Shown: positions 37,342 to 40,004 of the stretch, piece by piece
Layout: each line of letters opens with the position of its first letter
Position numbering within the stretch: position 1 is the stretch's first letter
Source: Saprospirales bacterium
GTDB taxonomy: Bacteria > Bacteroidota > Bacteroidia > Chitinophagales > Saprospiraceae
NCBI GenBank assembly: GCA_947459365.1
Contig: CANHDG010000005.1
Coordinates: 1 to 40,004 of the forward strand
Direction of reading: 5' to 3'
DNA length: 40,004 nucleotides
Notes under the pieces: generated by a model
What the model saw: only the letters and a program-made list of their open reading frames with translations
Told to the model about the DNA's origin: nothing
Databases searched by the model: none
Program-made: the position numbers and the translations under genes

Positions 37342-39417
37342 TTATTTTGCGAAGATTGAGATAGCGGCTCCACCTCCAGGGGCCAACTGGAGGGTAATAA
37401 TATCGCCCTTTTTGACCATTTTTTTAGTTACTTCGACAGGGTACGGGTTATCTACGTAATGGGAATCAGGACCGTCTGCATAGATTACAGTTTCATAGTT
37501 CTTGGCAGGGTCTAAAAAATCAAGGTTAATTTTAAAGGATCTGCTTTCTTCATCTGTTATACTACCTATGAACCAATTATCAGATTTTTTTTGTTTTCGT
37601 GCAATGGTTAAATAGTCTCCGATTGCAGCATTCAGAACATGGGTTTCTGACCAATCGGCTGGAACGTCGCGGATAAATTGAAATACTTCTGGCCGTTTTT
37701 CGTAGTTTTCCGGTAAGTCTGCTGCCATTTGTAGAGGAGAATACATCGTCACGTACAAAGCGAGTTGGTTAGCGACCGTTGATTGGATGAATTCTTTTTT
37801 GTTAGGGTCATAGGCGTTCATCCGTGTTTCAAAGATGCCTGGTGTATAATCCATTGGCCCTCCGAGCAATCGTGTAAACGGTAATGTCAGTACGTGGGAG
37901 GGGTTATTCCCCTTGCTCCAAGCATTGTATTCCATTCCTCTTGCAGCTTCGTTGGAAACCCAGTTCGGCCAGGTCCTTTGTAATCCACTTGGCCTGGAGG
38001 CTTCATGTGCATTTACCATTATTTGATAGTTGGCGGCATTTTGGGCAACACGGATCAAATGAGTATTAAACCACTGACCATCGTGCCACTCCTTTTTAGG
38101 GAATAGGTAGCCCACGTAGCCGGTCTTAACGGCACTCATTTGATGCTTTTTCATGTATTGGAAAGCGGCATCCATTTGTCGCTCATAGCTTGGTACTGCA
38201 CCAGAAGTTTCATGATGCATAATTATACTAACCCCCTTTGATTTTGCGTAGTTTGTTAATTCATTTATGTCGTAATCTGGGTAAGGTTGAGTAAAGTTGA
38301 ACACCTCTTCTTTGCCGCTATTAAACCAATCCTCCCAGCCAACATTCCAGCCCTCAACCAAAACACCTTGGAAACCATACTTTGCTGCAAAGTCAATGTA
38401 TCTTTTCACATTTTGGGTATTGGCTGCATGGGTACCATTGGGTTTCCCTGACTTGTCTGAATAGTGCCAAGAGCCTTTGCCTACGTGCATTTCCCACCAT
38501 ACACCCACGTATTTTGTAGGTTTTATCCAACTAAGGTCCCCTGTGATTTTACAGGGTTCATTAAGGTTGAGAATGGTTCTGTTTTCAAGCAAGTTAGCAG
38601 CGGAATCGTCTATAAGAATAACCCTCCAAGGAGTATGAAAGGGCAATTTATTCTTAGAGATAATGGATGGATTTGCGGTGGGGGTAACGCTTGCTTTGAG
38701 CAATAACTTTTTACGATCCACATTGAGGTGCAAGGCCCCATAATCGACCATGGCTGCTTCAGCAATGGCTAGATGAAGTCCCTTTGAGTTTCGGAATGCA
38801 ACAGGCGTTTGGACTGCGTGGGTATTGGGGATGTATTGATTAAACGGTTCAATATCGGTTAAGTGTTTTGCTGCATCGATTTTGCTTAGAAGGGATTGGG
38901 TATAGGTATGTTCGTTCGAGTCCCAGTCGGAGGGTGCCCACCAGGTGGTATAATCTTCTGCGAGTTGGAACTCGGTAAATTCACGCATTACCGATAAAGA
39001 GTCTGCTCCTTGATGATCAAACTCATATCTGAATCCGATCCCATTGTTGAACGCTTTAAAGTGAAGTTTTAATTTGTGTTTAGAGGGTGATTCCAGTTCT
39101 AGGACAAGAGCATTGTGTTGATCACGGATATACGCTTCTTCCCCCAAGACAGGCATCCAGGTGGAGTCAACTTGGTAGAGCTGTGTATTGGTTAAGGTGA
39201 GTTGTTTGGAAAAGTCTTGGAGGGTTGTTAATATTCCAAGTTTAGAGTTTGGTAGGACTTTTTTTCCTTTTCGGGAGATGGAGTAGGATGGTTTCCCCCT
39301 TTTGTCCAATTTAAATTGTAGGGCTAAGGAATGATCTGGGGAGTACAGTATTTTAGATTGTGCATCTAGCTTGGGGCTTGAGATAAGTAGACAAATTAGG
39401 AGTAGATAGATACGCAT
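37342..39417 (-). CDS. Glycoside hydrolase family 97 (alpha-glucosidase/alpha-galactosidase)
   Basis: WWAPSDWDSNEHTYTQS, KYVGVWWEMHVGKGSWHY, KYGFQGVLVEGWNVGWEDWFNSGKEEVFNFTQPYPDYDI, MVNAHEASRPSGLQRTWPNWVSNEAARGMEYNAW. Start 39417 preferred (signal peptide). Confidence 0.95.
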   Translation of the reverse strand: MRIYLLLICLLISSPKLDAQSKILYSPDHSLALQFKLDKRGKPSYSISRKGKKVLPNSKLGILTTLQDFSKQLTLTNTQLYQVDSTWMPVLGEEAYIRDQHNALVLELESPSKHKLKLHFKAFNNGIGFRYEFDHQGADSLSVMREFTEFQLAEDYTTWWAPSDWDSNEHTYTQSLLSKIDAAKHLTDIEPFNQYIPNTHAVQTPVAFRNSKGLHLAIAEAAMVDYGALHLNVDRKKLLLKASVTPTANPSIISKNKLPFHTPWRVILIDDSAANLLENRTILNLNEPCKITGDLSWIKPTKYVGVWWEMHVGKGSWHYSDKSGKPNGTHAANTQNVKRYIDFAAKYGFQGVLVEGWNVGWEDWFNSGKEEVFNFTQPYPDYDINELTNYAKSKGVSIIMHHETSGAVPSYERQMDAAFQYMKKHQMSAVKTGYVGYLFPKKEWHDGQWFNTHLIRVAQNAANYQIMVNAHEASRPSGLQRTWPNWVSNEAARGMEYNAWSKGNNPSHVLTLPFTRLLGGPMDYTPGIFETRMNAYDPNKKEFIQSTVANQLALYVTMYSPLQMAADLPENYEKRPEVFQFIRDVPADWSETHVLNAAIGDYLTIARKQKKSDNWFIGSITDEESRSFKINLDFLDPAKNYETVIYADGPDSHYVDNPYPVEVTKKMVKKGDIITLQLAPGGGAAISIFAK

Positions 39418-39627
39418 AGAAGCTTTTTTTTGAAAAAACAAAGATAAGTCTTAGAATGAGAGTACTAGTTGGGCCCATTTGTTTATTTTCAGAAAAGCTT
39501 CATTCTAGCTTTGTTGAGGTAATCAGGGTGTAAGGTAAGGAGTCGGAGATGCTTCCAGAAGTGGGCGTAGGTCTAGTTAAAACACATTTACTTTGAGGGG
39601 TTAAATTTTGTTGTTTGACCCTGTAGA

Positions 39628-39658
39628 TTTGTCGTTTAAAAAAAAATAGTTACCTTTG
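39628..39658 (+). promoter_or_regulatory. Bacteroidota-type promoter TTTG-N19-TACCTTTG
   Basis: TTTG at 39628-39631, exactly 19 nt, then TACCTTTG at 39651-39658; matches the -33/-7 consensus TTTG-N19-TAnnTTTG. Confidence 0.75.
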
Positions 39659-39662
39659 GTCG

Positions 39663-39920
39663 ATAAAAAAAGCAGCCCTTGATGAAGAGCTGCTTTCTGT
39701 GTCATGGGATTATAGTTTAATAAACACTCTATTTTGGAGTGTGTGTGGAGAGGTGGCCGACCCTACCCCCCAGTGGAACCGGCCCCTCGCCACGGATTTA
39801 AGGTCACTATTGACCCTATTCGATTATCGGTTTTTAGCCTTGAAGAACTATCTCAGTCTTCAGTATGCGGGAGAAACTTGGGCAATTACCGTGCCAAAGT
39901 TCGAATTAATTAAATTTTTC
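39663..39920 (+). ncRNA. Candidate structured non-coding RNA of unknown family
   Basis: Downstream of a consensus promoter; hairpins at 39669-39696, 39724-39742, 39750-39788, 39802-39815, 39841-39862 and 39877-39899, ending near a T-run (39915-39919). No convincing ORF. Confidence 0.5.
39882..39897 (-). promoter_or_regulatory. Sigma-54-like -24/-12 element (TTGGCACGGTAATTGC); could instead be a hairpin arm
   Basis: Reverse complement reads TTGGCACG-GTAA-TTGC, with exact GG-N10-GC spacing. Confidence 0.4.
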
Positions 39921-40004
39921 TTGATATGTCTTTTGGTTTTTTTGCTTGAGCCATGTAGCCAGTGAAGCGTTAAGGGCCAGTGCAGTGGTGGTTAGCATTA
40001 ATAG
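39906..40004 (-). CDS. C-terminal fragment of a gene running off the window edge
   Basis: The minus-strand frame is open from 40004 to a TAA at 39906: LLMLTTTALALNASLATWLKQKNQKTYQEKFN*; hydrophobic then basic tail, membrane-protein-like. Confidence 0.5.
   Translation of the reverse strand, partial: LLMLTTTALALNASLATWLKQKNQKTYQEKFN

Follow-up and report, generated by a model that had tools for sequence, protein, structure and literature searches.

A predicted sigma-54-dependent small RNA with an invariant G-rich loop, usually encoded divergently from htpG, in Saprospiraceae

CrcZ and CrcY of Pseudomonas and Azotobacter are stand-alone small RNAs that depend on sigma-54, carry repeated motifs, and act as decoys for Hfq/Crc (PMC8871633). 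In Bacteroidota, predicted sigma-54 regulons are enriched in chaperones (PMC12316311), and in Flavobacterium psychrophilum, sigma-54 promoters have been mapped for htpG, dnaK, groESL, grpE-dnaJ, clpB, and lon as well as for the small RNA Rfp36 (PMC9723704). The RNA described here resembles CrcZ/CrcY in being a predicted stand-alone, sigma-54-dependent small RNA with motifs (in our case putative binding motifs) that are repeated in many genera, but it has no sequence or structural likeness to them, comes from another phylum, and is typically found next to htpG, while their neighbor is cbrB. Moreover, the CrcZ motifs are unpaired A-rich repeats, whereas those of the present RNA are G-rich hairpin loops. 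The presence of one conserved G-rich loop on repeated hairpins of one transcript, predicted here for the tandem copies, is shared with CsrB/RsmZ, although the Csr loops carry GGA and the loop here reads GGGGGGUA. Rfp36, whose sigma-54 promoter has been mapped, is a putative regulatory RNA of the Bacteroidota, as is the present RNA, and htpG of its host also has a sigma-54 promoter (PMC9723704); however, we saw no sign of homology, as judged from the lack of a convincing copy of our core model (R2, below) outside Saprospiraceae. A literature search found no work on small RNAs in Saprospiraceae.

The locus lies in the last 400 nucleotides of the window, i.e., the whole stretch of DNA analyzed (40,004 nucleotides), which is all of contig C5 of a 3.15-Mb draft genome. 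Its features, and those next to it, are as follows.

39882-39896, minus strand: sigma-54 (-24/-12) promoter TGGCACGGTAATTGC, the sole match in the window to TGGCAYN5TTGC (0.20 expected)
39664-39870, minus strand: predicted small RNA of about 205 nt, deduced from promoter and terminator; fold z = -4.5
39799-39818, minus strand: hairpin A, UAGGGUCA-AUAG-UGACCUUA, in which 5 of 8 pairs show two-sided changes among 28 distinct sequences
39745-39793, minus strand: hairpin B, the family core (GUGG..GAGG GGCCGGUUC loop GGGUCGGCC CCUC..CCAC), supported by covariation and by matches to model R2
39764-39772, minus strand: invariant loop UGGGGGGUA of hairpin B, its GGGGGGU identical in 37/37 aligned copies
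39724-39742, minus strand: small hairpin ACACUC/GAGUGU between core and terminator, from the predicted fold
39664-39696, minus strand: intrinsic terminator AAAGCAGCTCTTCATCAAGGGCTGCTTT followed by a T-run, from a script scan and the fold; this was hairpin 1 of the original prediction
39628-39658, plus strand: TTTG-N19-TACCTTTG, the promoter of the original prediction, present here and conserved in 0/76 relatives
37342-39441, minus strand: glycoside hydrolase family 97 gene (Pfam PF10566, E = 1e-104), the downstream neighbor and not part of the RNA

The start of the predicted RNA was set 12 nt past the -12 element and its end at the T-run of the terminator; the promoter reads TGGCAC-N5-TTGC (39896-39882, minus strand). 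The first 283 nucleotides of another contig of the same genome (G000:C307:1-283) overlap the end of C5 (window positions 39678-39960) at 95% identity, and that contig runs on into the next gene; the overlap represents either a strain variant or a second copy.

The original prediction had also placed an undescribed structured noncoding RNA at this locus, but on the plus strand, starting near 39663 from a housekeeping promoter of the -33/-7 class. The promoter sequence is indeed there and has no second match in the window, where chance alone would give 0.29 occurrences of TTTG-N19-TANNTTTG. Likewise, TACCTTTG does precede the tRNA-Leu (22231) and SRP RNA (27888) genes, as had been pointed out, but the window holds three further copies (26271 on the plus strand, 27128 and 16403 on the minus strand), and a TTTG/TACCTTTG promoter sought at the matching place in 76 relatives was found in none of them. 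Since both strands of the stretch fold better than shuffled sequences (z = -4.0 for the plus strand and -4.2 for the minus strand), folding energy alone cannot assign the strand. The alignments do so: in the minus-strand reading, G-U cells outnumber A-C cells by 104 to 3 (alignment A1) and by 124 to 4 (alignment A2), and because pair variation thus runs through G-U and not A-C, the RNA strand is the minus strand. The six inverted repeats that had been listed are all present, although they acquire another meaning on this strand. The first one, together with its A-run, becomes an intrinsic terminator, a long stem and then a T-run, while the sixth (CTTGGGCAATTACCGTGCCAAAG) is no ordinary hairpin but the reverse complement of the stretch containing TGGCACGGTAATTGC, i.e., the sigma-54 promoter. 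GGTCA/TGACC and GAGG(T)GGCCG/CGGCCCCTC do belong to the conserved core, which however forms on the opposite strand, where the supposed 20-nt C-rich loop is the invariant G-rich loop UGGGGGGUA. Position 39663, proposed as the start, falls at the predicted 3' end. A plus-strand RNA has its perfect consensus promoter in its favor, but that promoter is not conserved, the covarying structure has the minus strand as its sense strand, and the transcript would end in a sigma-54 promoter instead of a terminator; on the grounds of the G-U asymmetry and the lack of conservation, we rejected this reading, leaving it only a very slim chance. The plus-strand match at 39628-39658 may be due to chance, or it could in this species promote transcription antisense to the RNA; a weak antisense transcript could coexist with the minus-strand RNA.

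We then determined how widely the RNA is distributed. All sequences came from genomes, largely metagenome assemblies, and because relatedness among the species makes their loci non-independent, there are fewer independent observations than the locus counts suggest; in addition, the genome_contigs records and the G-numbered genomes partly overlap. The stretch 39744-39835, delimited by BLASTN (E up to 0.001), was conserved in 28 of 36 same-genus genomes, and a covariance model recovered at least one more copy in the genus (genome G008). The genus-level model, R1, was run on 299 genomes of the order and matched 25, which belong to a single family. Model R2, a 62-position covariance model of the core hairpin built from many genera, matched 108/248 Saprospiraceae genomes, representing 57 of 114 genera. 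In the class sample, R2 matched 5/395 genomes, every one of them Saprospiraceae, and in the phylum sample, the only addition to these few was a palindrome (G1066) that we judged unrelated. No convincing copy was thus found outside Saprospiraceae in the Bacteroidota class and phylum samples, R2 absence calls being only as reliable as the model and its fast filters. Three candidates were set aside: a Myxococcales record (L059) was a chance match, with neither a hairpin nor a sigma-54 promoter beside the matched string; a Thermoanaerobaculia record (L063, JAKLJF010000260.1), carrying htpG and the full RNA, is probably a misbinned Saprospiraceae contig; and the G1066 palindrome is a perfect inverted repeat, the surrounding 3 kb of which yielded no htpG. 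Where present, the RNA occurs as single or tandem copies spaced by 60 to 400 bp, with 2 to 4 copies in many genera and one copy in the window and in most of its genus.

The two hairpins of the core differ in where they vary. Hairpin A (AAGGYC..GGYCUUAA) changes on both sides in 5 of its 8 pairs within the genus, whereas hairpin B is nearly fixed there. A comparison across genera, with 37 hairpin B sequences drawn from about a dozen of them, revealed compensation at 8 of the 13 pairs and a covariation score that was reached by none of 500 shuffles. On this compensating stem, the GGGGGGU loop was identical in all 37 aligned copies. The stretch of loop between stem and G-run differs by one to three bases among copies, which disfavors a reading frame, and the earlier view that the locus encodes no credible protein was upheld. 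Conservation and covariation in relatives, on which the original prediction had staked its claim of a structured noncoding RNA, were therefore both found, and the Rfam comparison that it had proposed as a check yielded no family: cmscan of this locus in the window and in 11 relatives against Rfam 15 gave no match at or above the gathering cutoff. Relaxed thresholds produced only low-scoring chance matches, the best one in the window being BTnc060 (25.4 of 228.9 bits). In line with the original prediction, the RNA matches neither tmRNA nor 6S RNA: tmRNA (RF00023) is located elsewhere in the genome (G000:C87), and RF00013 (6S RNA) was not matched anywhere in the genome, although a diverged Bacteroidota 6S RNA could sit elsewhere in it. 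The genome has tmRNA, SRP RNA, and RpoN and yet no RF00013 match. It is very likely that the locus encodes a structured RNA of this family on its minus strand, and the family is apparently undescribed.

In the genus of the window, 32 of 34 loci have the sigma-54 pattern TGGCAYN5TTGY upstream of the RNA, compared to approximately 0 expected; in other genera, 21 of 39 loci have it, compared to 0.3 expected and 0/39 on the other strand. The expectations were calculated from the DNA that flanks these loci. No recognizable sigma-54 promoter was found in the other 18 of the 39 loci outside the genus. Among the same-genus copies collected, own genome included, 29/29 carry TGGCAY-N5-TTGY 104 to 214 nt upstream of the invariant TGGGGGGTAGGG (minus-strand reading). 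In tandem arrays, the promoter precedes the first unit only, suggesting one transcript with several hairpins. Of the 248 family genomes, 232 encode RpoN, and the genome of the window does so on contig C27 (G000:C27). With a -24/-12 promoter on a fixed side of the RNA and RpoN in the genome, the RNA is predicted to be sigma-54 dependent.

We next examined the neighboring genes. By clustering of neighbor proteins, htpG was found to be divergent from the RNA in 65 of 72 scorable loci, its identity being confirmed as HSP90 by Pfam PF00183; the 7 remaining loci, including the window and three close relatives, have enough flanking sequence but no htpG, and 5 more loci are cut short. In other genera, htpG adjoins the RNA in 36 of 40 loci from about 22 genera, and among twenty weaker matches it is divergent within 1 kb in 13 and lies at 2.4 kb in one. 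The gene downstream of the RNA varies between loci or is convergent. The copy in the window is one of the few that moved away from htpG: in this genome, htpG sits apart on contig C47, and the gene upstream of the RNA, read on contig C307, is wecA-type glycosyltransferase-like by sequence. Since this copy neither adjoins htpG nor has the htpG-side motif, its induction by protein stress is an extrapolation from the other loci. htpG itself is preceded by TGGCAY-N4-TTTG, which is akin to the sigma-54 pattern of the RNA, in 61 of 65 loci, and by eye this element usually stands beside a GNCA-N3-TGNC-like inverted repeat (CTGNCA-AAA-TGNCAG; L040-L076 and L142-L181). In Saprospiraceae, it is likely a sigma-54-type chaperone promoter with an activator site. 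The htpG-side motif (TTTGNCAG..TGGCAC) did not lead to a chaperone regulon, this over-strict pattern giving matches only in or near unrelated genes. On the basis of the promoter pattern, the htpG element, the presence of RpoN, and the sigma-54 promoters of F. psychrophilum, the RNA and htpG are likely to be controlled jointly.

Two further observations concern the space around htpG. In L142 and 14 other loci, a conserved open reading frame of 80 to 90 codons (cluster C3) lies between htpG and the RNA on the strand of the RNA; it has no Pfam match, and its stop codon abuts the sigma-54 promoter. In L227, L228, L232, L237-L240, and L242, the G6-loop hairpin beside htpG is followed directly by a T-run, and in those genera it may double as a terminator.

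We infer from these data, with reasonable confidence, that the minus strand encodes a small RNA which depends on sigma-54, runs from about 39870 to a terminator at about 39664, and belongs to an undescribed Saprospiraceae family that is normally divergent from htpG, that this RNA would be made together with htpG in a sigma-54 protein-quality-control response, and that it would serve as a decoy through its G-rich loop. Sigma-54 would transcribe the RNA together with htpG upon protein damage, repeated hairpins would display the G-rich loop as a putative binding site, and under stress the loops would titrate a partner that is most likely an RNA-binding protein, as in the CsrB/RsmZ and CrcZ systems. 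The decoy step, taken alone, is a plausible proposal to which we give somewhat less than even chances. It is suggested by the repeated identical loops on one predicted transcript, by the stable hairpin, and by the invariant unpaired loop, and also by the finding that the perfect complement of the loop is not enriched genome-wide and has no clear 5'-untranslated-region (5'-UTR) target among 54 sites; the mostly single copies in the genus of the window weaken the idea of titration.

The same RNA and promoter could instead serve a trans-acting antisense RNA whose G-rich loop pairs with C-rich stretches (UACCCCCC) of target mRNAs. A strictly conserved unpaired loop is typical of a seed, and 48 of 67 other-genus units have C-rich 6-mers on the 5' side of the hairpin compared to 14 in shuffled sequences, which indicates C-rich partners at least within the RNA. 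However, six genomes contained 214 copies of TACCCCCCR versus 248 of the reversed pattern and hence showed no enrichment, 50 of the 54 sites in two genomes fell inside coding frames and none was a clear 5'-UTR site, and only 4 of 65 loci had a C5 run close to the start of htpG. Simple antisense targets reached through UACCCCCCR were thus rejected; no conserved complementary sites were found at mRNA starts in this search for perfect sites, imperfect pairing being still conceivable, and we regard the antisense reading as unlikely. The C-rich 6-mers (CCCCCC and CCTCCC in L142-L181) might alternatively pair with the RNA's own G6 loop, giving a cis-acting, self-regulating switch in which temperature or a ligand reshapes the array and decides the fate of the transcript. 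The excess of these 6-mers ahead of the loop in other genera and the terminator-like hairpin and T-run of some genera fit such a switch, but the variable or convergent downstream gene leaves no common gene to control in cis, and the genus of the window lacks the enrichment (3/35 versus 2.7), so self-pairing cannot be the general mechanism; we consider this option improbable. Lastly, GGGGGGU is able to pair along the anti-Shine-Dalgarno sequence (ACCUCC, two of the pairs being G-U), and by binding the 3' end of 16S rRNA in this way the loop could sequester free 30S subunits. As a loop with Watson-Crick pairs throughout would read AGGAGGU and none of the 37 copies tends toward that sequence, this seems very improbable.

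Returning to the decoy reading, the invariant loop provides a clean bait for finding its partner. The present data add to Saprospiraceae an RNA family that is supported by covariation, strictly conserved in its loop, and linked to a gene, and an RNA in the sigma-54 chaperone regulon, tied to Hsp90, would offer a direct handle on how Bacteroidota deal with protein stress. The usual adjacency to htpG in relatives suggests a new RNA component of the response to protein damage. We tentatively propose, as a possibility held with less confidence than the decoy step, that in Saprospiraceae the sigma-54 proteostasis response may include an RNA branch of its own, a transcript linked to Hsp90 and often made up of tandem GGGGGGUA-loop hairpins that would titrate an RNA-binding regulator when proteins are damaged.
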